DNA from: a virus
Strand: one strand, 5' to 3'
DNA: 35,327 nucleotides
Virus record (IMG/VR): IMGVR_UViG_3300046467_002355
Location: 1 to 35,327 of that record
Shown here: positions 371 to 34,833 of the stretch, piece by piece
How positions within the stretch are numbered: the first letter of the stretch is position 1
How the letters are laid out: every line of letters begins with the position of its first letter
The notes under the pieces: generated by a model
Database searches by the model: none
What the model saw: the letters and a program-made list of their open reading frames with translations, nothing else
What the model was told of the DNA's origin: nothing
Translations under genes and position numbers: made by a program

Positions 371-1879
371 TCAAAATCTTAGTGATTGCACCTCACATGG
401 GAATTTTTCTTCTTTGTATATTTTTCTTCTTTCTATGCCGTGACGATAAACATAATTAAGCCATTCCGAACCTTCATTTGTATATCTAAAGTCATCTACA
501 AAATCATATATCTTAACATGAGACTTGGAGTGATGTTTTCTTAAACCTCTACCAATGCTCTGTCTTATTATCACTTCACTCTTGAAACTTTCAGTAAAAA
601 AGATATTGTGGATGTTCTTAATAGAAATACCAGTTGAAAAGGTACCATAACTTGCTACAATGATAACATCTTCATTGTTTTCCATACGGTGTTTGAACTC
701 TTCACGGATGTCTTTATTTATACTCCCATCTACATAATAAACCTTCTTATCAGTTGTCTCCCTGAGTTTATTATATATTTTCTCTCCGTATGCAATCTTA
801 TGAAATAAGACTAACGAATTAGTATTTGTTTGACCTATGACTTTACAAATAAAATCTAGCCTCTTATCATTTTGATTAATAAAGTTTTGTTCTAAATTAA
901 ATAAATTTTGTCTATCCTTGTAATTACGTGATAATTGCCAAAAGGCATCCTTCTGTTCTTTAGTTGCATATTCCATGTGGAGTTGGACAACTTTACAATA
1001 TGAAATGAAACCCTCATCTTGTAATTTAGCCGCTTTAACCTGTGTAACCAAGGGTCCCATTGCAGACATTAAAGTTAACCTATCTACAGTTCCTCTTTTA
1101 GGAATTGTTCCTGAAAGACCAAACCTATAATCACAATGCCAACACTTATCCATTATCTTTTGTATTGAAACTGCTTTAGCTTTATGTGTTTCATCTACCA
1201 TGACTGCATCGAACTGAGAAAAATATTCAGCATCTTTTTTAACTAAAGATTGAAATGTTCCTATTACAATGTTCGAACTCTTCTTTATCTTAACACCCGC
1301 ATAAATCTGTTGAATTATTAAAGGAACTCTACTTTTGTAATTATATTGATCAAAATCTCCAGTAGCCTGTAATACCAATTGTACATTAGGTACCACTATT
1401 AATATCCTCTTCTTTTTCAAGACTTCCATGAGATAAGCAACAATCATAAATGCTATAAGGGTCTTTCCTGCAGATGTGGCTAATTCTGCTAAACACCTTC
1501 TATACTTAAGTATCTTAAAGGCTGCATCTATTTGATATTCTCGGGGTTTAAATTCAGGATGATCTTGGAAAAAATCAGATACCCATGCTCTAAAAGAAGG
1601 TTCATCAATTTCTTTATCAAAAATGTCAGTAACATTATTAATCCCAAGTGGAAGTTCATATTCTTTACAAACATCTACAACTTCTTTCCACAGTCCTGCT
1701 GGAATACGATTTCTTTTAACAAAGGATATATTACCATCCCAGACTTTCTTTTTGACCAAAGGGTGAAATCTCCAACCATCAATCTTCTTAGTGAGACTAC
1801 TTTTTAATTGCTCGTATTCAAGTTCAGTACAAGCATCAATAATTAAAAATTTTCTGTTATCAGCTAATGAAAGTTCCAT
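371..1879 (-). CDS. uvsW: UvsW-type DNA/RNA helicase
   Basis: This is a superfamily 2 helicase of 502 residues, almost the length of T4 UvsW (503). A Walker A motif ATSAGKT lies at about 134-140, motif II is DETH at 229-232, motif III SGT at 256-258 and motif VI QSIGRGLR at 440-447. The roughly 100 residues before the helicase core match the position of the UvsW N-terminal nucleic-acid-binding domain. UvsW unwinds R-loops, D-loops and branched DNA, regresses forks, and in T4 helps switch from origin- to recombination-dependent replication. The gene starts one base after the UvsY stop, the same neighbour relation as in T4. DETH instead of DEAD or DEAH is a common variant and should not abolish ATPase activity. 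Confidence 0.93.
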   Translation of the reverse strand: MELSLADNRKFLIIDACTELEYEQLKSSLTKKIDGWRFHPLVKKKVWDGNISFVKRNRIPAGLWKEVVDVCKEYELPLGINNVTDIFDKEIDEPSFRAWVSDFFQDHPEFKPREYQIDAAFKILKYRRCLAELATSAGKTLIAFMIVAYLMEVLKKKRILIVVPNVQLVLQATGDFDQYNYKSRVPLIIQQIYAGVKIKKSSNIVIGTFQSLVKKDAEYFSQFDAVMVDETHKAKAVSIQKIMDKCWHCDYRFGLSGTIPKRGTVDRLTLMSAMGPLVTQVKAAKLQDEGFISYCKVVQLHMEYATKEQKDAFWQLSRNYKDRQNLFNLEQNFINQNDKRLDFICKVIGQTNTNSLVLFHKIAYGEKIYNKLRETTDKKVYYVDGSINKDIREEFKHRMENNEDVIIVASYGTFSTGISIKNIHNIFFTESFKSEVIIRQSIGRGLRKHHSKSHVKIYDFVDDFRYTNEGSEWLNYVYRHGIERRKIYKEEKFPCEVQSLRF

Positions 1880-1880
1880 T

Positions 1881-2324
1881 CTACATACTATCTTCTAGGT
1901 GTATTCTGTTTCTTATTGCAAATGCCATATTATCTAAAGTACGAATACACTCTTGGTAATATTCAACATGAGATTCTATCAAAGATATTTGTATCTTAAG
2001 TGAGGATAGGTCAGCTTTAACAAACTGGGCCTTTTCACCGTTACTTAATTTCATATCATAGTTGAGACTGTATTCCCTCCAACTTTCTTTGAAGTACTTA
2101 TCCCACGTTGCATTCCGTTTATATATTGTAGATTTGAATTCACCAAGCTTATCCAAGAGAATTTGTCGGTATGATAACATATATACCTGACACTCTGATA
2201 ATTCATTGAAATTTTTACTTTGGTGTATGAGGTCTTTTATCTTATCCTTCCATTCAACTCGGTCTTGGATTAGTCTCTCTTCCAACAGAATGTTGGCTTC
2301 TTTTATTTTAGTATCATCAAACAT
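1881..2324 (-). CDS. uvsY: UvsY-type recombination mediator
   Basis: This is a 147-residue, mostly helical protein (T4 UvsY is 137). The C-terminal third aligns by eye with T4 UvsY: a segment KADLSSLKIQ followed by an aromatic helix and then LDNMAFAIRNRI, corresponding to SADKDVLKVD and LDAIKSRGFAIKHI in T4. UvsY binds single-stranded DNA, destabilises gp32 on it and helps load the UvsX recombinase. The start ATG overlaps the stop of the preceding gene (TAATG), and the stop lies one base before uvsW. An AAAGGGA run about 10 bases upstream is one of the few Shine-Dalgarno-like sequences in the window. The adjacent uvsW makes the call firm. Confidence 0.82.
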   Translation of the reverse strand: MFDDTKIKEANILLEERLIQDRVEWKDKIKDLIHQSKNFNELSECQVYMLSYRQILLDKLGEFKSTIYKRNATWDKYFKESWREYSLNYDMKLSNGEKAQFVKADLSSLKIQISLIESHVEYYQECIRTLDNMAFAIRNRIHLEDSM

Positions 2325-2545
2325 TAAAATATCCCTTTATCTTTGTTCTTTGTCATTATGGTAATCTTTGGTTTAAATTTTTTGATAGGCTTCCCCATAT
2401 CAAAAGATGTAGTAACTTCTGTATCTTTAATGTCACTCTTAAATTTAGGGATGAGCTTAAGTTTCTTTTCACTGTCCTTTAAGTCATCAAAGAATCCTTC
2501 TAATTCTTCAGCTTCATTCACAAAATCTACGAATGTTTTTATCAT
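2324..2545 (-). CDS. Small hypothetical protein with capsid-targeting-like N terminus
   Basis: This 73-residue protein overlaps both neighbours (ATGA with the primase stop, TAATG with uvsY), so it is probably translationally coupled. It begins MIKTFVDFVNEAEELEG, then has an acidic stretch followed by a strongly basic C-terminal half rich in Lys. The start resembles the capsid-targeting sequence of T4 internal proteins (MKTYQEFIAEA), which directs proteins into the prohead and is removed by the prohead protease. That resemblance is short, and the position between primase and uvsY does not suggest a head protein, so the role is open. No known domain is visible. Confidence 0.7.
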   Translation of the reverse strand: MIKTFVDFVNEAEELEGFFDDLKDSEKKLKLIPKFKSDIKDTEVTTSFDMGKPIKKFKPKITIMTKNKDKGIF

Positions 2546-3612
2546 AAGAAAACTATATCCATCGGATCATTGCTAAAATATTCATCAATAACATCTAAGC
2601 ACCCTGTCCTTTCTTTATATTCAAATTTAATAAGATCATTAAGATCTTTTATCTTTTTTCCTTTTATGTGATGCTGTTCTAAAAACTTGCTCCATAAAAA
2701 AATCTTTTGTCCGTTCTTTATTTTTTCTATCATTTTTATCTTACCCTCTCTATCATTATCTAACATATAACGAGCGGTTGGTATTTCATCAAAATCAACT
2801 ATCTTCTTTTTAACACCAGTGAGTCCTATGGAATTACTCATGAACAGTGCATCTATGGGTCCTTCAAATATTGTAAAATCTCTACCTAAGTCGGTTCTTA
2901 AAATACCAAATAGCATTGATATTTTATTTATTGAGTCTACTTCCTCAACTGGTAAATTTAAGGGTATCCTAAGTCTATCATAAATTCTTTGGATATTCCA
3001 TGTCTTATATTTAGGCCCTTTACCTTCTAAGTCCCTAGTTTGAAATCCTACTATCTTCCCTTTAGTATCTAAATTAAAAATGTATAGTTCTTTCATCTTA
3101 GGATCAAACCCAAAGTGTTCCAACTTATGATGAAGTAATCTACTCTTAAGATAAGGGTAAGCACGATATGTCAATTCATTGATAGGATAAATATTAAACC
3201 CTTTACATAGTTCATCAAAAGATAATGATAATTCACTTATCTTTTCAAATAAGTAAAAATCTAAGCTCTCACCTAAACTAAAGTGAGTCTTGTTCTCTTT
3301 GATGTAATTAAGAACATTAATCCTTTCATCTCCTTCAAAGTTTTCTTTGAAATCTATAAGAAAGTTATCAAGTGATTTATGTTCACTACAGTTGTAACAG
3401 TGAAAGTACAGATCGTTCCAATAAAGGTTCCCTCTCTTCTTTCGTTGTACAACAGTTGAATCACCACAATAAGGACATGCAAAATTAAGTCTTCCTCTGC
3501 TTTCTAAGTACTGTCTTTTTTCTGGGTGACTATGATTACGATAAAGGACTCGAGCTATCTTATCGATAATTCGAGTCCTCAAATCTGAAGATATTGATAC
3601 CTCTTCCGTCAT
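2542..3612 (-). CDS. 61: DNA primase, T4 gp61 type
   Basis: This 356-residue protein is close in length to T4 gp61 (342). An N-terminal zinc-binding domain is visible with Cys46, Cys49, Cys72 and Cys75 (CPYC and CYNC). A TOPRIM catalytic domain follows: the motif IFEGPIDALF holds Glu250, and YMLDNDREGK holds Asp285 and Asp287. Such primases make short RNA primers for lagging-strand synthesis with the gp41-type helicase, which is not in this window. The gene begins four bases after the gp32 stop, so single-stranded DNA-binding protein and primase are probably co-expressed. Start ATG at 3610-3612; no Shine-Dalgarno sequence close to it. Confidence 0.9.
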   Translation of the reverse strand: MTEEVSISSDLRTRIIDKIARVLYRNHSHPEKRQYLESRGRLNFACPYCGDSTVVQRKKRGNLYWNDLYFHCYNCSEHKSLDNFLIDFKENFEGDERINVLNYIKENKTHFSLGESLDFYLFEKISELSLSFDELCKGFNIYPINELTYRAYPYLKSRLLHHKLEHFGFDPKMKELYIFNLDTKGKIVGFQTRDLEGKGPKYKTWNIQRIYDRLRIPLNLPVEEVDSINKISMLFGILRTDLGRDFTIFEGPIDALFMSNSIGLTGVKKKIVDFDEIPTARYMLDNDREGKIKMIEKIKNGQKIFLWSKFLEQHHIKGKKIKDLNDLIKFEYKERTGCLDVIDEYFSNDPMDIVFL

Positions 3613-3616
3613 TATC

Positions 3617-4516
3617 TTATAGATCTAAACCTGCAATAAAATCATCAAGATTATCATTGGATTCAGCCGCTACAGCTTCTACCTTTGGTGCTTCTTCTTT
3701 CTTTGCTGCCTTTGGTGCTTCTGCTACAGTTTCATTAACAGTTGGTCGTGTTACAACTTCTATAGAATCACCTGGTGAAGAGAATTGAGAAAGTACATTA
3801 AGTACCTTTCCTCTAATCTCATCGTTCCATGCAGAATATTCAAAGTTACTTAAATCCGGTGCATCTTTAAGATATGCCAAAATTGCTTTACGTGATTCGT
3901 CTGTGTTAGTAACAGCCTCACCTTCTAAAACCATAGCACTTTTGGTACCTTGGAATTTTGAAGAATCATAATTTGGAAATCCTCCTTTTTTAGAAATAAC
4001 CAATTCAAAGTTCTTTCCATCAAACGGATCAAACACTTGAGTAGGTTCATCGAATTGTGGATTCAATTCCTCTTCAATTTTTGTCTTAATTTTCCAACCG
4101 AATTTGTAAACTTTAATCTGTCCCTCTAAATCTCGATTTTGTGGATCTTTTACGATTTGAACAAGAGCATAGAAATTCTCTCTTCTCTTTAAAGACTCAG
4201 ACATCTTTTTATCAACTGCTGATTCTGAGTTTCTCAACTTAAAGAACATGTCCTGTACTGGACATTTATCACCTACCGTTGATGGTGAGTCAGCATAAAA
4301 ACCATTCCCGTCTCGGTCTTCTAACCAATACACGAATTTTCTGATAAAAGGTTTTCTGGGATTTGTTGGGTTCGGTAAGAACCTAATTAAAGAGCGGTAA
4401 ACACCGTCTTGTCCTTGATCTGGTTTAGGAGTGTATAAATCGCTACCTTTTGAAGGTGCTTCTCCAGTGTCTAAATCATTTACACTTACGTTAAAAATGT
4501 CGAATTCATTTGCCAT
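3617..4516 (-). CDS. 32: Single-stranded DNA-binding protein, gp32-like
   Basis: This 299-residue protein (T4 gp32 is 301) has the layout of gp32: an N-terminal region, a central DNA-binding core with alternating basic and aromatic residues, an Ala/Lys/Glu-rich linker at about 260-285 and an acidic C-terminal tail ending DNLDDFIAGLDL, which in this family contacts replication and recombination partners. Two features differ from T4. Only one cysteine (Cys85, in GDKCPVQ) and no histidine are seen, so the His-Cys3 zinc site of T4 gp32 is absent. The N terminus MANEFDIF also lacks the basic KRKST motif used for cooperative binding. A 162-bp leader with a hairpin and a promoter-like motif precedes it, and primase follows directly. 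Confidence 0.85.
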   Translation of the reverse strand: MANEFDIFNVSVNDLDTGEAPSKGSDLYTPKPDQGQDGVYRSLIRFLPNPTNPRKPFIRKFVYWLEDRDGNGFYADSPSTVGDKCPVQDMFFKLRNSESAVDKKMSESLKRRENFYALVQIVKDPQNRDLEGQIKVYKFGWKIKTKIEEELNPQFDEPTQVFDPFDGKNFELVISKKGGFPNYDSSKFQGTKSAMVLEGEAVTNTDESRKAILAYLKDAPDLSNFEYSAWNDEIRGKVLNVLSQFSSPGDSIEVVTRPTVNETVAEAPKAAKKEEAPKVEAVAAESNDNLDDFIAGLDL

Positions 4517-4623
4517 AGTATTGCCTTTATTTATGTTATTAATTTTGGATTAACACATAGCGAAGCCATAATTGAATTGCCTTAAAAACTGCCAATTTAC
4601 TTGCCTATGTTAATGCCGTTTAG

Positions 4624-4648
4624 CAAAGGTACTATTTTAATACCTTTG
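4624..4648 (-). promoter_or_regulatory. Perfect inverted repeat in the gp32 leader
   Basis: The minus strand reads CAAAGGTA, a 9-base spacer TTAAAATAG, then TACCTTTG: an uninterrupted 8-bp stem. It directly follows the promoter-like motif, so if that motif acts as a -10 element the hairpin would sit at or near the 5' end of the gp32 mRNA. No U-run follows, which argues against an intrinsic terminator. TACCTTTG also fits the Bacteroidota -7 consensus TAnnTTTG, but I found no -33 element at the usual distance. Confidence 0.6.
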
Positions 4649-4662
4649 TTTATTATATATTC
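4649..4662 (-). promoter_or_regulatory. Candidate phage promoter motif GAATATATAATAAA
   Basis: The motif lies 133 bp upstream of the gp32 start and immediately before the hairpin. It is identical in its first 14 bases to the motif upstream of gp25 (30123-30137). The position, in the longest intergenic gap before a highly expressed gene type, supports promoter function. No experimental signal is available from the sequence alone. Confidence 0.45.
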
Positions 4663-4678
4663 ACAAAGACAGTTTGTT

Positions 4679-4981
4679 TCACTCTATTGTAATATTTTTT
4701 TCAATGATTGCTGCAATGTCACGTTCTCTAATATTGTAAATTTTTTGGCCTTCGTATTCAAATTCAAATCCTGCCAAATCATGAAAGAGTACCCTTACCC
4801 CAGGTTTGTAATCTTCATCTTCTACTTTATTACCAACCGCAATAATAGTACCAGTGTAAGGAGGTAAATTGACATCTTCACTAGTCAAAAGTAAGATACC
4901 ACCTAGAGATTCAGAAACGATATCTTTTATCAAAAATACCCTTTCTCCTATTGCTTTAATATTTTTTAATTTTTCTTTCAT
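4679..4981 (-). CDS. GroES/gp31-like co-chaperonin
   Basis: This 100-residue protein has the length and pattern of a chaperonin-10 (E. coli GroES 97, T4 gp31 111). It starts with a core strand (IKAIGERVFLIKD, 8-20), has a mobile-loop-like segment ending GGILL (27-31; canonical GGIVL), the pattern GTIIAVG at 44-50, KPGVRVLFHDLAGFEFEYEG at 59-78 and a C-terminal strand RERDIAAII. Such proteins cap host GroEL. T4 gp31 replaces GroES to fold the major capsid protein, and this is the probable role here. It lies between the RuvC-like gene and gp32, with a 64-bp upstream gap (4982-5045) in which I see only an AT-rich TTTTATATT run and no hairpin. Confidence 0.85.
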   Translation of the reverse strand: MKEKLKNIKAIGERVFLIKDIVSESLGGILLLTSEDVNLPPYTGTIIAVGNKVEDEDYKPGVRVLFHDLAGFEFEYEGQKIYNIRERDIAAIIEKNITIE

Positions 4982-5045
4982 TAATCTGAAACAAATCTCT
5001 CAAGCACCAATATAAAATTTAACTAAAAACCCGAAAGAAATATAT

Positions 5046-5690
5046 TTAATTAGCTTGTAGGATTCCAGTCTGAACAATGAAGTAAGCATCTACAAGATCG
5101 TCAAGAGGTTTTGGTATTTTTTCTGAATAGTCCTTTCCTTGGACATATTTCCATAATTTAGTTTTTTCTAATAATTTGTCTGCTAAGACATTCTCCTGAA
5201 AGGCTTTAATCATAAAGTGTTTATTACCATTTCCTTTCCCAGCAGTCTTCTTAACTTGCGAAGGTTGATACACAGAAATTTTATCCTTGCCCCATAAGCT
5301 CATTAATTCCTTTCTTAAAAAAGAATTATATTGAATAATGTCAATGAAAGAGTTACCTTTAGAGCCATAAGAAAAACCTTCTAAGTAAACTTTCGTATTA
5401 TATCCCCACTTCCTTATATTTCCACAAATGAGATCTGATAATAAAGTAGCATCTCTCATTTTTTCACGTTCTCTTTTCAAAAATTCTTTACTCTTAACAC
5501 ATCTATTGTACATGAGAGAAATGATTGTATCATCCTCGTCTAATTCAAAGTGTAATTGGAAAGCTTTAAGAATTTTCTTATTGGGAGCTCTACCCCCGTA
5601 ATTGAAAAAAGATATGAAGTGATACCCACCCTCATCTAAGATACAGACTCCTGGGCTGTTCAGAGAAAAATCAATTCCTATATGTGTCAT
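5046..5690 (-). CDS. RuvC-like Holliday junction resolvase
   Basis: This 214-residue protein has the RNase H fold of RuvC nucleases. The acidic residues are in the expected order: Asp7 in GIDFSLNSPG, Glu104 in VYLEGFSYGS and an Asp cluster at 197, 198 and 201 in PLDDLVDAY. The typical RuvC segment before the last acidic motif is also present (VYQPSQVKKTAGKGNGNK, 140-157). The enzyme would cut four-way or branched DNA so that replicated DNA can be packaged. T4 uses the unrelated endonuclease VII (gp49) for this. The stop of the preceding gene lies three bases upstream of the ATG. Exact substrate preference cannot be read from sequence. Confidence 0.8.
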   Translation of the reverse strand: MTHIGIDFSLNSPGVCILDEGGYHFISFFNYGGRAPNKKILKAFQLHFELDEDDTIISLMYNRCVKSKEFLKREREKMRDATLLSDLICGNIRKWGYNTKVYLEGFSYGSKGNSFIDIIQYNSFLRKELMSLWGKDKISVYQPSQVKKTAGKGNGNKHFMIKAFQENVLADKLLEKTKLWKYVQGKDYSEKIPKPLDDLVDAYFIVQTGILQAN

Positions 5691-27583: not shown

Positions 27584-27856
27584 TTAATTTATTTTTTGAT
27601 AGTATTTAGGTACTGCGTAATTATAGTATATCCTCAAGAATTTGACAGTGTTAATATACTTAACCATTATAGGTTGGACATACCTTATCAAAAAGGTAGC
27701 TAAATTAGGATTCCTGAACATATTTTTAGACATTGTCCTTTCAAAAAGCTTTTCTCCATAATCAAAACCTTCATTTTTTAAGTCCCACCAATATACCGTT
27801 GAAAATTGATATAGGCTTGGAAAACCTACTCTTCTATTCTGTCCTTCATCTACCAT
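27584..27856 (-). CDS. Small hypothetical baseplate-cluster protein
   Basis: This 90-residue protein is basic and aromatic: it contains many Tyr, Phe, Trp, Arg and Lys residues, for example FSTVYWWDLKNEGFDYGEKL, and ends VPKYYQKIN. Its ATG overlaps the stop of the gp6-like gene (TAATG), so translation is probably coupled to gp6, and the gp7-like gene starts five bases after its end. That position between two wedge proteins suggests a small wedge component. It is too short for T4 gp53 (196 residues), and I see no family motif. Confidence 0.65.
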   Translation of the reverse strand: MVDEGQNRRVGFPSLYQFSTVYWWDLKNEGFDYGEKLFERTMSKNMFRNPNLATFLIRYVQPIMVKYINTVKFLRIYYNYAVPKYYQKIN

Positions 27857-29727
27857 TAATTATTCTTATTTGTTTGACCGCTTATAGCCTTAAGTGTTGG
27901 GCTCCCTTCTAATCTTCCGGTATTTTGCCCAGCTGAATTTTTACCATCTGCTATAGTAGTACCTCTATTTCTCTTAAGATCATTAAAGTTCTTCTGTTGC
28001 GTTTTGGAATAAAGATCGTTTGGAATAGGAACTTTAAAGAACACATTAAGTGAACCTAATTTCTTTTCATTAGGATAAGGCTCATAATAATTATTATTCC
28101 TATCTTCCCAGCCTCCTCTAATAATGGCCAATTCTTCTGGTTCTATCTTTACATCTCCAAAATCATCTAATCCTAATAAGGGATCCTGTCCAGGTATTAA
28201 GACTATCTTTTTATTTTCTATCAAAACTTGTTGATCTGTTGCTGGGTCAGTTCCATAGACAGGTACAAAATAATAACCATCTCTTATAGCAGCTTCATTT
28301 TGTTCAGATATGAAAAAGACATTAACTGAATCCACACCTTCTACATTTTCAATAATAGAAATAATATCTGATCTTGGTATTCTATCTCTTCTATTAACAT
28401 TTAAAAAATAATCATTCAATTGCTTTTCTATCTCATCATTCATGGTACCCTTATCAAAATTTTCAAAGTATCTTAAAACAATATTTAGAGCATATTTTTG
28501 AATTATGGGATCTTTTATCCTTACTTCGGCAGTAACCACTTGTCTACCACTTTGATTAAGAATTTCCAAGACCATCTCTTTTTCTTCAGAATCTAAACTA
28601 AACTCTTCTTCAGGAATAGTAAAATAGGTCTTGTCACTTGTAAGTTTCTTTTTAATATCAGGTATAAGGAATAAGTATATAATATTATCATCATCCAAAT
28701 ATTGATCATCTTTAGTATTATATGCATTAATGAAAGAAAAGAAATCATACTTACTGAGATAATAAATGTAATTATTAGGATTAGCCAAAACAAAGGACCG
28801 TGATGCATAAGGTGCAATTAATCTGGTAAAATCAGGATCTTCAGTGTTTCCCCCAAATGCTGGAGACCTAAGTACTTGTATTGAAAGAACAGGGTTTAAG
28901 TCTACACCAGCACCAAGATAATCAGTCCCTTCATCAATAAATTTAAAAAGCATTCCCTTTCCACCAATATTTCCTGATGCACCATTTGTTTTAAGATATT
29001 CTACACTAATCACGGATCCTAATGGAGGTGCATAACCAAACTGTGTATTCCCAAAGAAAATATCTAATCCTCCAGCCATCCCGGTTTTAAACATACATTT
29101 TTTCTCATTGTAATTCATATCATACAAAGATTCCACATTATCAAATAATTCTCCATTCACTTTAACCTTAACATAAAATTGATCAGTAGCATTTTCTGTT
29201 GTTAAAGAAAAACTTTGTAATGGACTTCCGGTACCTGCAAATTTCTGTTCTTCTATTTCACCTTGAATTATTTCTACATTAACCCACTCTCTACTAGTTT
29301 TTTGTAACCTAAAGGAAGATGAATCAGCCTTAATAAAATATTGAAGTCCGTTATTTTCTAATTGAAATCGTGTATTATTTTGTATATCTACAAAATCACC
29401 TTCTACTAAATTGGCTGCATCTGAGTTTAATCGCAACTTTATCATCCCTTTAGCTGAAATGCCACGTGTTGGGTTATGACCTGTTAGTCTAGAAAGCCCA
29501 TAAATAGATTCAATGTTTCTAGCCCTTGCTATGTTTAATTCTGTTGAGGCAGCTTCAATGTAAAAGAATATCATCTCCCCCATATTAGAAACGACAGTCA
29601 GAACTTGACCAAATGGTGAAGCTGGTGTAAAAACACTTTTTGCCTGATCATAAGTCTTTTGTAAATATAAAAAGGCATCCTCAAATAATTCGGTTGCTTT
29701 AATTCGTGTGTTACTATAAAATGACAT
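27856..29727 (-). CDS. 6: Baseplate wedge protein gp6-like (baseplate J family)
   Basis: This 623-residue protein matches T4 gp6 in length (660) and position (directly after gp25). The N-terminal 100 residues have the wedge pattern: helical start, then ARARNIESIYGLSRLTGHNP (68-87), where bacterial and phage baseplate J proteins carry a conserved helix, followed by beta strands. The middle and C-terminal parts alternate strands and helices, with an Asn/Gly-rich tail. Gp6 dimers form the inner ring of the baseplate and join neighbouring wedges. The upstream spacer of 16 bp holds the A-rich run AAAAAATAAACC. Confidence 0.82.
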   Translation of the reverse strand: MSFYSNTRIKATELFEDAFLYLQKTYDQAKSVFTPASPFGQVLTVVSNMGEMIFFYIEAASTELNIARARNIESIYGLSRLTGHNPTRGISAKGMIKLRLNSDAANLVEGDFVDIQNNTRFQLENNGLQYFIKADSSSFRLQKTSREWVNVEIIQGEIEEQKFAGTGSPLQSFSLTTENATDQFYVKVKVNGELFDNVESLYDMNYNEKKCMFKTGMAGGLDIFFGNTQFGYAPPLGSVISVEYLKTNGASGNIGGKGMLFKFIDEGTDYLGAGVDLNPVLSIQVLRSPAFGGNTEDPDFTRLIAPYASRSFVLANPNNYIYYLSKYDFFSFINAYNTKDDQYLDDDNIIYLFLIPDIKKKLTSDKTYFTIPEEEFSLDSEEKEMVLEILNQSGRQVVTAEVRIKDPIIQKYALNIVLRYFENFDKGTMNDEIEKQLNDYFLNVNRRDRIPRSDIISIIENVEGVDSVNVFFISEQNEAAIRDGYYFVPVYGTDPATDQQVLIENKKIVLIPGQDPLLGLDDFGDVKIEPEELAIIRGGWEDRNNNYYEPYPNEKKLGSLNVFFKVPIPNDLYSKTQQKNFNDLKRNRGTTIADGKNSAGQNTGRLEGSPTLKAISGQTNKNN

Positions 29728-29743
29728 TCACTCGGTTTATTTT

Positions 29744-30112
29744 TTAATAAAGGACTCCTACTACCCTTCTATCATTTACAAATATATCAATATAACATCC
29801 ATTCCTTGTCGGGGTTTGGAAATATTGTACTTGTACGTCTACAGCAAATCCATCACCACCTGTTAAACAATATTCTACTATTTGATTTCCTACTGTATCT
29901 CTAATCATATCTTCATTACTTGTAAGAGAGAAGATTAAGTCATCTAAGTTAGCACCAAAATTAGGGGCACCCAAAACTTCTGTTTTTCGTGTAAAAAGAA
30001 TTTGATCAATCTTAATGATAAGATCATCTAAGGCATCATCTACTTCTAAGCGTGAAGCTTGGTAGTTAGGTGCATCTATGTCACGACTATAAAAATCTCG
30101 AATTGCTGGCAT
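29744..30112 (-). CDS. 25: Baseplate wedge protein gp25
   Basis: This 122-residue protein (T4 gp25 is 132) belongs to the GPW/gp25 family, found in all contractile tails and type VI secretion. The conserved motif is TRKTEVLGAPNFGANLDDLI (41-60), equivalent to the family pattern in which an Arg-rich turn precedes a Gly-containing loop and a short helix. Gp25 sits in the wedge core with gp6 and gp53 and helps initiate sheath polymerisation. The gene is directly upstream of gp6, the usual order. AGGA seven bases before ATG is a weak Shine-Dalgarno sequence, one of the few in the window. Confidence 0.9.
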   Translation of the reverse strand: MPAIRDFYSRDIDAPNYQASRLEVDDALDDLIIKIDQILFTRKTEVLGAPNFGANLDDLIFSLTSNEDMIRDTVGNQIVEYCLTGGDGFAVDVQVQYFQTPTRNGCYIDIFVNDRRVVGVLY

Positions 30113-30122
30113 TAATCCTATA

Positions 30123-30137
30123 TTTTATTATATATTC
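30123..30137 (-). promoter_or_regulatory. Candidate phage promoter motif GAATATATAATAAAA
   Basis: The motif lies in the 46-bp gap upstream of gp25, 11 bp before its ATG. Its first 14 bases equal the motif before gp32. If it is a -10 element the transcript would have a leader of only a few bases, so it may belong to a late class with short leaders; alternatively it is merely part of the AT-rich spacer. Confidence 0.4.
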
Positions 30138-30158: not shown

Positions 30159-30998
30159 TTATCCAGTAAAGAAATAATCAACACCCTCATCTCCTTTGAT
30201 TTCTTCGACCACAGCCGCTAATTCTTCAGTACCTTCATTCATCACTAAATCATAATTAATAGTAATGTTTCCTGGTAGATTAAAATTAAATGTACCTAAA
30301 ATTCTGGAAAGTTGTATTTTAGCTTTTGCTATACAATATCGGATAAATGCTTCATCTTCATAAAGATCACAATCAGGGATGGTAGTGAAAACTTGAAAAA
30401 TAACAGAATTATCAGGTAATTGACCAGTAAATCTAAATTTACGTGTAAGTCTATTGTAAGTATATCCGATTTGAGCCTGTAGAACTTGTCTACTAACATC
30501 AAGGAATTTAGAATTAATAACATAATACATTAAGTTCTCACTTCCTATGCCCGCACCATAAACATCACTATAAATAAATTTGTCTATTGAAAAGTCTGCA
30601 TCTCCATACGAAAAACTATTAGAACCAAACCCACCATCTTCTCCAGAAAAACCTCCTATTTCATAAACAGCATTAACAGCATAAACTCTTTTGGGCATCA
30701 TCACTATTCCTCTAGAATTATCTACATTTTTTTTATTTAGAGGGTCTTCTTCCGTGTCTAATCCATGTCTAAAAGATTGTTTCTTAAAAGTAGATCCTGG
30801 TAAAGCCAAATACATTTCTTCTACACTGTATTCATATATTTTGTAAAAATATTTTCGTGCTCTATCAATTATTCGTGCAAGTTCCTTTTTAGGGACTGTG
30901 AAAGGTATTTGGCATGCTACTGTCAATTCATCATTAATTTCTTGAATTAATTGTTCAAGGCATTTTTGATCTCCCGGATCACAATTAGTTACTGCCAT
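30159..30998 (-). CDS. Structural protein, probable neck/connector type
   Basis: This 279-residue protein has an N-terminal helix pair (KKELARIIDRARKYFYKIYE), a central region with the pattern PKRVYAVNAVYEIGGF, and a C-terminal part with TRKFRFTGQLPDNSVIF, helix IAKAKIQLSRILGTFNF, LPGNITINYD and an end motif GVDYFFTG. This order recalls virion proteins annotated as neck (gp13-type) in marine T4-like phages, but I recall that only loosely. It lies directly upstream of gp25. Two cysteines near the N terminus (Cys6 and Cys13) are unusual here. Virion structural protein is a safe call; neck location is not. Confidence 0.55.
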   Translation of the reverse strand: MAVTNCDPGDQKCLEQLIQEINDELTVACQIPFTVPKKELARIIDRARKYFYKIYEYSVEEMYLALPGSTFKKQSFRHGLDTEEDPLNKKNVDNSRGIVMMPKRVYAVNAVYEIGGFSGEDGGFGSNSFSYGDADFSIDKFIYSDVYGAGIGSENLMYYVINSKFLDVSRQVLQAQIGYTYNRLTRKFRFTGQLPDNSVIFQVFTTIPDCDLYEDEAFIRYCIAKAKIQLSRILGTFNFNLPGNITINYDLVMNEGTEELAAVVEEIKGDEGVDYFFTG

Positions 30999-31001
30999 GT
31001 C

Positions 31002-32330
31002 TTATTTTATTTTTTCAAATTCAATCACATCGGTATCAGAAGAAAGGCGAGCGTGATTAGTTATTTTTCCCTTTCTAAATATTCCGCCTTCCATCTCTCC
31101 GCTAAAAACACCATTTATTCCAGATACAAAGCAATTTTCTGCTGTTACACTTCTATTTACATAGCTATCTTCTATCTTAGATCTTTTTATGACAGAGGAA
31201 CCAAATATATTGCATTCCTTTAGAGAGGAATCATTAAGGTCAGAATTAAAAACATCACATTTAGCAACATTTCCTCTTATCTTGCAATCAACCACATCAA
31301 CATCTCTGAGTTCAAAGCATTGAGGAAGATCAGCATCTTTTAATTGTAACTTCCCAATATCACTATCATAATTTATCCACCCTTCCTTTAAACCGGCCTT
31401 AGTGATTATATCAAATATTTTTTCTCTCATTTTAGGATAAAACATTTCTACAATTTGCTGTGATGAGTTAAGGTCTACCATTAACTTAATATCTGGAAAA
31501 TTATCCTTAAACTTTAAATAAGATTTATATCCCTGTATAACTCCTTTGTGCTTTTCTAAAATTGCATCAAGTGTTTTAATATCCTTTTCTGTATACTTAG
31601 GACTGGTAAGTGATTCATAAAGAGATAGAATAAAATGTTCGGTTAGGTGTAAAATTTTGTAATACTTTTCTTCATAATCCTTTCCACCAAGATATCTAAA
31701 TTCAATATAACCTTTAGGGACCTTTCCAAAATTAACGCCGTAATATTTTTCACTTACGAACATATAATTTTTAGAAAGTGTCTTTTCTGGGGATTGTTGA
31801 TGGAAATTACTTAGAGGAACAATGAACTTAATAGACTTAGCATAAACAGAATTTTTCCTATGTGGAAAATGTTCAAATACCTCATCTTCATTAAAGTTTA
31901 AAACGAACTTCCCAATATCTAATTTAGAAATATTACTTTCAGGCCCTAATTTTTTTCCATCAAAAGAAATACTAACATGAATAGAACACTTATCATTTGT
32001 TGAAGCATGTTCTTTTATCCACTTTAAAGTTTTAGCTAATGTTAATTTAGCTTCGGTAAAAGGAAGGGGACCAGTGACAAGTTCGACCATACCACCTCCG
32101 CCAGAATTATCTGGTTCTAATTTAAAAGTCTTATCGGTTGGAATAAAATCACTATGGGCTTTTTCTTCAATTCGAATCTTTTTTTCTAAAGTTCTAGAGA
32201 GAGTATCTTTAATATCCTCTACATCATTTTTAGAAAAGAATTCAAATTCAAAACCTAGCTTGGAAAAATGGATAGCATTGAGCTGCTCGTTAGAATACAT
32301 ATATAACCTGAATTTTTTTATATATTTCAA
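31002..32330 (-). CDS. Putative amidoligase with C-terminal pentapeptide-like repeat domain
   Basis: This 442-residue frame has the signature of the amidoligase (COOH-NH2 ligase, ATP-grasp/glutamine-synthetase-like) family: GFEFEFF near 26-32 (Glu28, Glu30), LEPDNSGGGGMVELVTGPLP at 71-90 (Asp74, Glu83), CSIHVSISFDG at 115-125 (His118) and IEFRYLGG at 209-216. Residues 335-430 form a different domain with repeating short units (VDCKIRG, KCDVFNSDLNDSSLKECNIF), like pentapeptide or beta-helix repeats. The family joins carboxylates and amines, often on peptides or cell wall. The start is uncertain: TTG at 32330 gives (M)KYIKKF, ATG at 32300 gives MYSNEQ. It lies between S1 and structural genes. 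Confidence 0.6.
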   Translation of the reverse strand: MKYIKKFRLYMYSNEQLNAIHFSKLGFEFEFFSKNDVEDIKDTLSRTLEKKIRIEEKAHSDFIPTDKTFKLEPDNSGGGGMVELVTGPLPFTEAKLTLAKTLKWIKEHASTNDKCSIHVSISFDGKKLGPESNISKLDIGKFVLNFNEDEVFEHFPHRKNSVYAKSIKFIVPLSNFHQQSPEKTLSKNYMFVSEKYYGVNFGKVPKGYIEFRYLGGKDYEEKYYKILHLTEHFILSLYESLTSPKYTEKDIKTLDAILEKHKGVIQGYKSYLKFKDNFPDIKLMVDLNSSQQIVEMFYPKMREKIFDIITKAGLKEGWINYDSDIGKLQLKDADLPQCFELRDVDVVDCKIRGNVAKCDVFNSDLNDSSLKECNIFGSSVIKRSKIEDSYVNRSVTAENCFVSGINGVFSGEMEGGIFRKGKITNHARLSSDTDVIEFEKIK

Positions 32331-32346: not shown

Positions 32347-33492
32347 TTACACTAAAGCCATAGATACTTTTTTCTCAACGGCATTTACACCTTTGATACG
32401 AACTTTGATTATTTGTCCTTTGGAAATTTCTACACCTTTTAGTTGAGTTTTGTGTATTAGTCCGCTTATTCCCTTCTCTAATTGAACAAAGGCACCATAA
32501 TTAGTTATCTTTGTAATTTTACCTTCAACTTCTGAAAAGGGTGGGTATTTTTCTGAAGCAATATCCCAAGGGTCTATTGGAGGACCAGTCTGAGTAAGAA
32601 TAATTTTTTTATTGCTAATAATGTCTTTAACCCAAAAATCAATAGCATCACCTGCTTTAATATTTCTTTCATTAAAGTCTGGTAAAGAATTTACAAGTTC
32701 TCCTTTTGGTATAAGACCTGTAAGACATTCATTAAATTCGGCAAATACACCAAAGGCAGTAGTACCTGTAACGAACCCAGTGACCTTCTCTTTAACATTT
32801 TCTCGAAGATCTTCTATTGACTGTGGAACCTTTGTCTGTAAATATTCTCTACATGATACGACGATAGTCTCCTTTTCTCGTGAATATGTAATTGGCATTA
32901 CAATTAGAGTTTTCCCCACAAGGGATTCAAAGTTATGGAGTTTATTCATCCCAGCTAAAGATCCTGGCATAAAGGTTTGTATACCTGATATATCCACCCA
33001 ATAACCTCCATGAATTAATTCTTTGACAGTAGCAGTAAAAGCCAGAGACTTATTATTTATAGCCTCTAAAATTTCTTGTCTTTTACATTCTTCGATAGCA
33101 TCAGAAATACTAGCAGAAACCTCTCCATTCCTTTTAGGTTTTACTTTGACATCAATATTTAATCCTACACTTAATGCATCTTGTATTTCTTGTGGTTCTT
33201 TTTGTACATTAATATAAGCAGTATACTTAGAACCTATGTCTACTAAAACTTCCTTTAAAGTACCGTCTCCATTTTTAGAAATGTAAGTTACTTTTCCTTT
33301 GGTTAAATGTTCATGCCCTTGGTGAACCCGTTGATCTTTTTCATAATTATCAACGATACCGTATTCTTCCAACATTTCGATGGCATACGGTTCTGTTGAC
33401 ATTAATTTAACACCTTTAGGTAATTTGACTGTGATTGTTTCCGTATCAAACGGATCATCGCTTTTTTGAATGGTAACTTCTTGTTCGATCAT
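32347..33492 (-). CDS. Ribosomal protein S1 homologue with four S1 domains
   Basis: This 381-residue protein has about four S1 RNA-binding domains: approximately 63-130, 150-215 (GGYWVDISGIQTFMPGSLAG, a form typical of true bS1), 233-302 (GFVTGTTAFGVFAEF) and 319-381 (GKITKITNYGAFVQLEKGIS followed by GLIHKTQL). Cellular bS1 of Gram-negative bacteria has about six domains and 550-600 residues, so this is a shortened version. The first 60 residues match nothing I recognise. S1 binds the small ribosomal subunit and mRNA and supports initiation on unstructured or leader-poor messages. Here it is a phage gene within the baseplate cluster with its own 72-bp leader. It may steer translation to phage mRNA. 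Confidence 0.85.
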   Translation of the reverse strand: MIEQEVTIQKSDDPFDTETITVKLPKGVKLMSTEPYAIEMLEEYGIVDNYEKDQRVHQGHEHLTKGKVTYISKNGDGTLKEVLVDIGSKYTAYINVQKEPQEIQDALSVGLNIDVKVKPKRNGEVSASISDAIEECKRQEILEAINNKSLAFTATVKELIHGGYWVDISGIQTFMPGSLAGMNKLHNFESLVGKTLIVMPITYSREKETIVVSCREYLQTKVPQSIEDLRENVKEKVTGFVTGTTAFGVFAEFNECLTGLIPKGELVNSLPDFNERNIKAGDAIDFWVKDIISNKKIILTQTGPPIDPWDIASEKYPPFSEVEGKITKITNYGAFVQLEKGISGLIHKTQLKGVEISKGQIIKVRIKGVNAVEKKVSMALV

Positions 33493-33564
33493 TAAGTATT
33501 AATTAAAAAGTGTATTTAGAATGTATTTATTATTTTATACACAATGAATGGTTTTGTTTAAGAA
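33493..33564 (-). promoter_or_regulatory. AT-rich leader of the S1-like gene
   Basis: This 72-bp gap between the 155-residue gene and the S1-like gene holds, on the minus strand, GTATAAAATAATAAATAC, which contains two near matches to the T4 late core TATAAATA, then two copies of TAAATACA (33522-33529 and 33511-33518), then an AT-only run up to the ATG. No Shine-Dalgarno sequence or hairpin is seen. It may contain a promoter for the S1-like and following genes. Confidence 0.4.
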
Positions 33565-34035: not shown

Positions 34036-34833
34036 TTATTTTGTTGTTACGAAAGGAGGCCCACCACCTGTCGTTAGTTGTACGGGTGTCATAGGAAGTA
34101 CCGGCGGTGTCGTCGGTGTCCCAGGTGCTGTTGTCACGTGAGTGTGGGCATTAAATAAGGTCATAAATTTATTTCCTAATATAACATCTTCCGTTGCTCC
34201 CTTACCTAATTCTATTTTTTGTGCAGCATCAATGATAACTTCTGGAGCTTTAACAGTAACTTTAGCTGATGTTGTGATGTTCATATTTCCATCATTTACT
34301 AATTCTACCTCATCTCCATTCGGATTTGTAATGATGATACTATTATCAGGTAATATATTTATCTGAGTCTCTTTATAGTCCATCATAAGCCCCTTTTCCT
34401 CAGTAAAATAAATCTTTATGCCACCTTCTGTAGTTGTATCATAAAGCACAGAGTGAGCATTTTCATATGAGCCTTCTATTTCAGCTTTAAGATCATCAGA
34501 AGGGTAAACATTATAATGATAGGTTGGAGAATAAAGATCTCCGTTATCAAAAGTTACCTGAACTATAGAATCAATCTTTGGAGCTGAAAGAGTTCCTCCA
34601 CCAGTATCACTACCTCCAGTATTATTATTTCCAGGCCTTGCCCATGGGAGTTTATCAGTAGGTATATTAAAATCACTATCTGGGTTTGAAGAGTCGGCTC
34701 TTCCATCTAACTTACCATGTACACGAACTTTGCATCGACCCTCAAATAAAGGATCTGCATTATCTTCTACTATACCCACCCACTGAGTACCTGTAAGATT
34801 ATCACTTTGAAATTCTCTTGCACCTATTTTCAT
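34036..34833 (-). CDS. 5: Baseplate central spike, gp5/gpV type without lysozyme domain
   Basis: This 265-residue protein begins with an OB-fold (about 10-115): WVGIVEDNADPLFEGRCKVR, then LPWARP at about 83 and a Gly/Ser linker, and VQVTFDNGDLYSPTYHYNVY. After an ion-rich connector a beta-helix follows (about 150-225), with repeats such as NSIIITNPNGDEVELVNDGN and EVIIDAAQKIELGKG. The tip carries HTH (His230, His232), as in the iron-binding tip of P2 gpV-type spikes, then a Pro/Thr-rich tail. The spike pierces the outer membrane. T4 gp5 has a lysozyme domain between OB-fold and beta-helix; none is present here. The start overlaps the preceding gene by four bases. Confidence 0.85.
   Translation of the reverse strand: MKIGAREFQSDNLTGTQWVGIVEDNADPLFEGRCKVRVHGKLDGRADSSNPDSDFNIPTDKLPWARPGNNNTGGSDTGGGTLSAPKIDSIVQVTFDNGDLYSPTYHYNVYPSDDLKAEIEGSYENAHSVLYDTTTEGGIKIYFTEEKGLMMDYKETQINILPDNSIIITNPNGDEVELVNDGNMNITTSAKVTVKAPEVIIDAAQKIELGKGATEDVILGNKFMTLFNAHTHVTTAPGTPTTPPVLPMTPVQLTTGGGPPFVTTK

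Follow-up and report, generated by a model that had tools for sequence, protein, structure and literature searches.

Does a reading frame embedded in the tail genes of a viral genome encode a genuine homologue of ribosomal protein bS1, and could its product act on the ribosome of the host? The question is raised by a frame at positions 32347-33492 (minus strand) of IMG/VR record IMGVR_UViG_3300046467_002355, the whole 35,327-nucleotide stretch of which was analysed and is hereafter referred to as the window. The frame, present in the ORF list of the window, starts with ATG and codes for 381 amino acids. The original prediction, based on the sequence alone, described a phage bS1 homologue with four S1 domains that lacks about two domains of its bacterial counterpart.

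Profile matches, a structural model and fold comparison bear out the four S1/OB domains at these coordinates. The Pfam S1 model matched the protein at 4e-20 and the NCBIfam bS1 models matched residues 51-380, comprising all four domains, at 1e-38 to 3e-45, the matches of the same protein to RNase R (5e-9) and PNPase (9e-8) being far weaker. A profile of the phage family (A1) matched E. coli bS1 at 4e-59 with domains 1-4 colinear, and the PNPase S1 domains at about 1e-6. The equivalog cut-offs of bS1 in NCBIfam are far from reached (133-155 bits against 368-624 for the best four models) and PHROGs holds no family for the protein. The tandem S1/OB domains show the order and the signatures of bS1 domains 1-4; the signature of bS1-type domain 2 reads HGGYWVDISGIQTFMPGSL, as predicted, and bS1 domains 5-6 are the two that are absent. 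The S1-domain nucleases and factors (PNPase, RNase R, RNase E/G, NusA) provided neither the best match nor a catalytic domain in the Pfam, NCBIfam and profile searches, and grouping with PNPase, RNase E or RNase G was not seen. The AlphaFold2 model, calculated from 43 sequences (pLDDT 83, pTM 0.57), starts with a beta-hairpin and a short helix, which four OB domains follow, and its top Foldseek matches in the PDB are to bS1 on the 30S mRNA-delivery complex (3.6e-23). Strong purifying selection is indicated by dN/dS values of about 0.07-0.09 for the closest pairs, in which dS is near saturation. Profile and fold matches thus favour bS1 over a nuclease or generic factor, as had been proposed, and support a bS1 ancestry of the protein over one among the nuclease-type S1 proteins.

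The N-terminal region was described in the original prediction as the protein's own, which holds for one part of it. Residues 1-30 (33403-33492; this and all features below lie on the minus strand) form a beta-hairpin which, from the model and the sequences, is particular to the sub-clade of the window. Residues 34-45 (33358-33393) form the short helix, EPYAIEMLEEYG, with conserved Y36 and Y44; on comparison with the E. coli cryo-EM study of bS1 (PMC10123108) it occupies the place of the uS2-binding N-terminal helix. Tyrosine is found at position 0 of this helix in 48 and at position 8 in 46 of 50 phage S1s, the register of Y36/Y44 against E. coli Phe5/Phe9 of the uS2-binding helix being uncertain. 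Five Bacteroidota bS1 genes and PDB 9zcd_A carry DFNW..[FY]E.G or a close form at the N-terminus, a motif seen in none of the bS1s examined from other phyla. Deep-branching phage S1s carry F[DN]W (L090, EFDWDLFE; L093, DFDWDGLQ; L095, EFDWDQYQ; Lak, SFNWTPYE), and the sub-clade of the window has the hairpin in its place. The region is therefore peculiar in its hairpin and not in its deeper relatives, whose motif is of the Bacteroidota type. The N-terminus of the window protein is thus a remodelled form of the segment with which bS1 docks on uS2. The presence of F[DN]W in phage S1s is a separate hint at a tie to Bacteroidota and may reflect either shared descent or convergence.

The ribosome contact residues of bS1 were taken from the same cryo-EM study and counted in 108 dereplicated phage S1 representatives. 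OB1 (residues 62-128; 33109-33309) contains Lys89, the equivalent of E. coli Lys43 in the uS2 pocket, a position with K or R in 105/108 representatives. OB2 (residues 151-214; 32851-33042), with the phage-family motif FMPGSLAGxNKL, contains Tyr164 and Phe174, equivalents of the mRNA-contacting Phe120 and Phe130 (PMC10123108); the former is Y or F in 107/108 sequences and the latter F in all 108. The equivalents of E. coli Phe79 and Lys117 are not conserved in this set. OB3 (residues 235-300; 32593-32790) has the family motif G-V-TGTT-x-FGxF, and in the sub-clade of the window the usual S1-domain His is replaced by Pro. OB4 spans residues 320-381 (32350-32535); Lak phages lack both OB4 and the Lys43 equivalent. 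OB2 and OB3 are the best conserved domains; OB1, with which bS1 docks, is one of the less conserved regions.

The distribution of the gene was examined with S1 and independently of it. In IMG/VR at least 492 stretches, among the 598 listed and scanned, encode a relative. To avoid selecting contigs by S1, others were recruited by the wedge protein alone or by the neighbouring protein W23 alone; S1 was present in 68/68 and 72/72 evaluable contigs, respectively (140/140; the contigs found with W23 overlap those found with S1), on the same strand wherever tabulated. Each of ten long contigs (112-236 kb) has exactly one S1. The expectation that a phage S1 is a rare case does not survive these counts: S1 is a core gene of a large uncultured phage group, nearly every member of which carries it. 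Among annotated phage records, credible S1 matches were confined to huge phages, namely LR756500 (462 kb; 45% identity to the window protein), LR756501-504 and LR745206 (635-735 kb; about 30%) and the Lak phages (25-35%). Records LR756500 to LR756504 are presumably the huge phages of Al-Shayeb et al. 2020. Second, longer S1-domain proteins that are not bS1 homologues occur in LR756504 (449287; 601-aa frame), LR756502 (71423; 646-aa frame) and LR745206 (195391; 644-aa frame). A contig labelled uncultured Clostridium (L109, CAMYZH010000086.1) carries a Lak-like phage S1 and is thus probably phage. Several other matches (H6, H14-H16 and H26-H31) were excluded because they are, or look like, bacterial contaminants among the phage records, of which L014 and L015 were inspected. 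By the baseplate wedge, the closest isolates after Lak are the Tenacibaculum phage pT24 and the Sphingomonas phage PAU, the complete genomes of which contain no S1 domain; the wedge search also matched Chryseobacterium, Flavobacterium, Bacteroides and Rhizobium phages.

In a tree, 25 phage S1s, including those of the huge phages and Lak, form a single clade (100/100) on a long stem, with nearest bacterial matches at about 30% identity. Constraining the phage S1s with Bacteroidota in the tree of domains 1-4 was neither rejected (AU p 0.16) nor positively supported, the clade standing apart on its long stem. The phage S1s resemble Bacteroidota-type bacterial bS1 (rpsA) in the order of domains 1-4, in the uS2 and mRNA contact residues and in the F[DN]W of the deep members, but lack domains 5-6, share only about 25-30% identity and form a separate clade. 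Huge phages with a possible rpS1, for which a role in translation initiation was already proposed, were reported in 2020 along with S21 (Al-Shayeb et al. 2020, PMC7162821), so the phage S1 is of a known kind. The window S1 is homologous to, and in the same clade as, the S1s of the LR7565xx records, and both groups are poor in Shine-Dalgarno (SD) sequences; the family of the window differs in its contigs, which reach about 236 kb, its fixed place in the baseplate block and its far broader distribution. Three BFVD entries share fold and length with the window protein: A0A7S9STL2, an S1 motif protein of Virus NIOZ-UU157 (56% identity), and A0A8D9CG03 and A0A6J5NIG6 (32% and 22%), both named 30S ribosomal protein S1 of uncultured phages. 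These are database names, and no analysis of the genes was found in the literature searched. By its description, Microcystis phage PhiMa05 also encodes bS1, among several ribosomal proteins, and a Vampirovibrio-like host is its reported source (PMC13157829). The literature searches found no experimental study of any phage S1.

The placement of S1 within a baseplate cluster was correctly predicted. Upstream lies W27, a gp5-like baseplate hub/spike gene (34036-34833), and downstream follow W24 (31002-32330; a conserved neighbour with a weak match to phrog_33777), the conserved, head-tail adaptor-like W23 (30159-30998) and the gp25-like and gp6/J-like wedge genes (27856-30112). The order W27, small ORF, S1, W24, W23, gp25, gp6, W20, W19, W18, W17 recurs in nearly all of the best 80 loci. 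W24 begins with LGFEFEFF, which recalls amidoligase-like enzymes; Pfam gave no match and PHROGs only the weak family of unknown function. At 371-5690, next to tail genes, lie genes for replication and recombination of the T4 type (UvsW, UvsY-like, primase, gp32-like, RuvC-like). The huge phages of 635-735 kb keep S1, yet about 100 kb or more from the wedge gene.

In 871 kb, the motif ATATATAAT has 109 forward copies and 3 reverse ones. Of the forward copies, 106 are followed within 90 nt by an ORF, which is S1 in 39 cases, the gp25-like gene in 29 and an unlabelled ORF in 37. In the window it stands just upstream of the gp25-like gene (30127-30135), and S1, which it precedes in most relatives, has the A/T-rich promoter-like variant TATAAAATAATAAATA upstream (33524-33539). 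ATATATAAT resembles a promoter serving a class of structural genes, in which S1 would be the first gene of its own unit. Late expression gains support from gene position and promoter-like motif, the timing itself being inferred. The T4 late promoter TATAAATA was tried as the late motif and rejected for lack of strand bias (80/78). About 60 nt upstream of S1 in loci L017-L096, a further conserved A/T-rich element, GTATAA[AC]TAATA or GTAAAATAATAAAT, lies upstream of ATATATAAT.

A second ribosomal protein, bS21, a neighbour of bS1 on the 30S platform, is encoded by many of the same phages. The Pfam S21 model was matched over its cut-off in a 181-kb contig of the clade of the window (G001), in G012 and G013, in four of the 635-735 kb phages and in 18/44 further records. 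In contigs that include at least 22 kb upstream of S1 and are thus evaluable, bS21 was found in 11/13 of the clade of the window, on the same strand and 19.6-25.8 kb upstream; in a second lineage, five contigs carry it at a distance of 17.9-21.0 kb, again upstream and on the same strand. The window contains 1.8 kb upstream of S1, with no bS21 in that stretch, and ends before the 18-26 kb position, so its bS21 could not be seen. One phage bS21 scores 33.1 with the NCBIfam S21p model, above its equivalog cut-off of 28.95. Pfam S21 found no bS21 in pT24, PAU, T4 and phi38:1; Lak and LR756500 have S1 without bS21. The related huge phages LR756500, LR756501 and LR756504 encode IF3. The bS21 genes (G001:C1 114120-114308, L147; and 18 loci, L332-L349) have no SD upstream, and several directly follow phage tRNA genes. 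The position of Tyr54 is Y in 18 and F in one of 19 phage bS21s, aromatic in all. The Bacteroidetes bS21 phages of Chen et al. 2022 resemble the present relatives in Bacteroidia-type Tyr54 bS21 and predicted hosts; bS21 is described there as expressed late, and the text searched does not mention bS1 (PMC9723584). The S1-S21 pairing in this phage group was stated in no paper found, the literature being partially covered.

The lack of SD sequences in these genes, on which the original prediction had rested part of its functional argument, was confirmed: SD was found upstream of 0/26 window genes (0.06-0.08 expected) and in 2% of genes in G001 (shuffled 4%), compared with 55% in T4 (shuffled 15%). 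The argument itself fails, because pT24 (2%) and PAU (6%), relatives without S1, are equally SD-poor and share with the S1 phages an A-rich patch at -14 to -11. With these controls, SD loss is ruled out as support for the function of S1; it tracks the phage/host group, which weakens the correlation offered in 2020 to back phage S1 function (PMC7162821). The ribosomes of Bacteroidia disregard SD (PMC9976891), and Tyr54 of their bS21 helps conceal the anti-SD (PMC9976891, PMC9723584). The aromatic residue at Tyr54, the F[DN]W motif of S1 and the wedge relatives make a Bacteroidia host likely; the host is probably Bacteroidia, directly for the relatives and by kinship for the window. The Bacteroidota sigma-factor motif TAnnTTTG, present in pT24, was not enriched in G001 and G002 and was dropped as host evidence.

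With moderate confidence, we favour a late bS1 analogue that would dock on the host 30S subunit, compete with host bS1 and select late phage mRNAs. Having kept domains 1-4 of bS1 and lost 5-6, the protein would be made late in infection along with the tail proteins; OB1 and the N-terminal helix would dock it at uS2, positioning OB2-OB4 at the mRNA entry site, where it may compete with or replace host bS1, with the outcome that A-rich, SD-less late phage mRNAs are preferred. The conserved contact residues and the co-encoded bS21 lend indirect support to the putative action on the 30S subunit. In F. johnsoniae, initiation on a single SD-less mRNA rose about 2-fold when bS1 was added (PMC9976891), so the proposed role stays plausible. 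Since many of these phages also encode a Bacteroidia-type bS21, the 30S neighbour of bS1, the two proteins may jointly refit the mRNA-entry platform. Against the 30S reading count the missed equivalog cut-offs, the lower conservation of OB1, the unconserved Phe79 and Lys117 equivalents, the Lak proteins without OB4 and the Lys43 equivalent, the His to Pro change of OB3 in the sub-clade, and the occurrence of S1 without bS21 in Lak and LR756500.

That OB2-OB3 rather than the docking OB1 are most conserved would also suit an RNA-binding protein working off the ribosome, protecting, unfolding or routing late phage mRNA or serving as cofactor of a phage RNase or polymerase. For Al-Shayeb et al. 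the protein may work on or off the ribosome (PMC7162821), and host S1 serves T4 RegB and Qbeta replicase in other phages (PMC9409239, PMC13157829); K or R at the Lys43 equivalent and the co-encoded bS21 nevertheless point to the 30S platform, and this explanation is considered unlikely. The fixed place of S1 in the tail block, invariably between the gp5-like and gp25/gp6-like genes, its constant presence wherever the baseplate genes are found and the promoter-like motif in common with structural genes fit a virion role too, as a part of the tail or baseplate or a factor in their assembly, made up of OB domains, in which the likeness to bS1 would be a relic. Such a role is rather improbable, however, given the distant S1 of the 635-735 kb phages, the conserved mRNA-contact aromatics, the ribosomal bS1 as top fold match and the related baseplates of pT24 and PAU, which build tails without S1.

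A protein without domains 5-6 that retains docking features might instead be a decoy, occupying uS2 and shutting off host translation rather than promoting that of the phage. Four-domain S1 proteins are found in some bacteria, so the truncation alone does not decide this reading; conserved OB2-OB4 and RNA-facing residues would be needless in a pure plug and a factor that shuts off the host would be expected earlier than the late promoter-like motif suggests, which leaves the decoy very improbable. Recent pickup of a host bS1 or a mis-binned host contig deserves mention because bacterial rpsA does contaminate the phage collection (L014, L015, probably H28-H29). It is refuted by synteny and phylogeny, with phage genes on both sides, the same gene order in about 80 contigs, a clade of its own and only distant bacterial matches, and its probability is negligible.

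Returning to the late bS1 analogue on the 30S subunit, the near-universal S1, often with S21, suggests that these phages probably re-equip the mRNA entry site of the host ribosome. Tentatively, and with less confidence than for the single protein, a large clade of Bacteroidia phages may use bS1 and bS21, core or near-core proteins lining the mRNA-entry platform, to make late phage-specialised ribosomes with altered start-site choice in non-SD hosts. To the earlier reports the present analysis adds that S1 is a core gene, that bS21 often accompanies it, that the contact residues are conserved and that the host is likely one of the Bacteroidia; it also corrects the SD argument. Phage ribosomal proteins are mostly scattered single finds; here S1 is a fixed core gene of a widespread uncultured group, often paired with bS21, its contact partner on the ribosome, in probable hosts that choose start sites without SD. 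If the pair acts on the 30S subunit, the two proteins would be a natural tool for separating the roles of bS1 and bS21 in SD-independent initiation, for which an in vitro system from Flavobacterium already exists.
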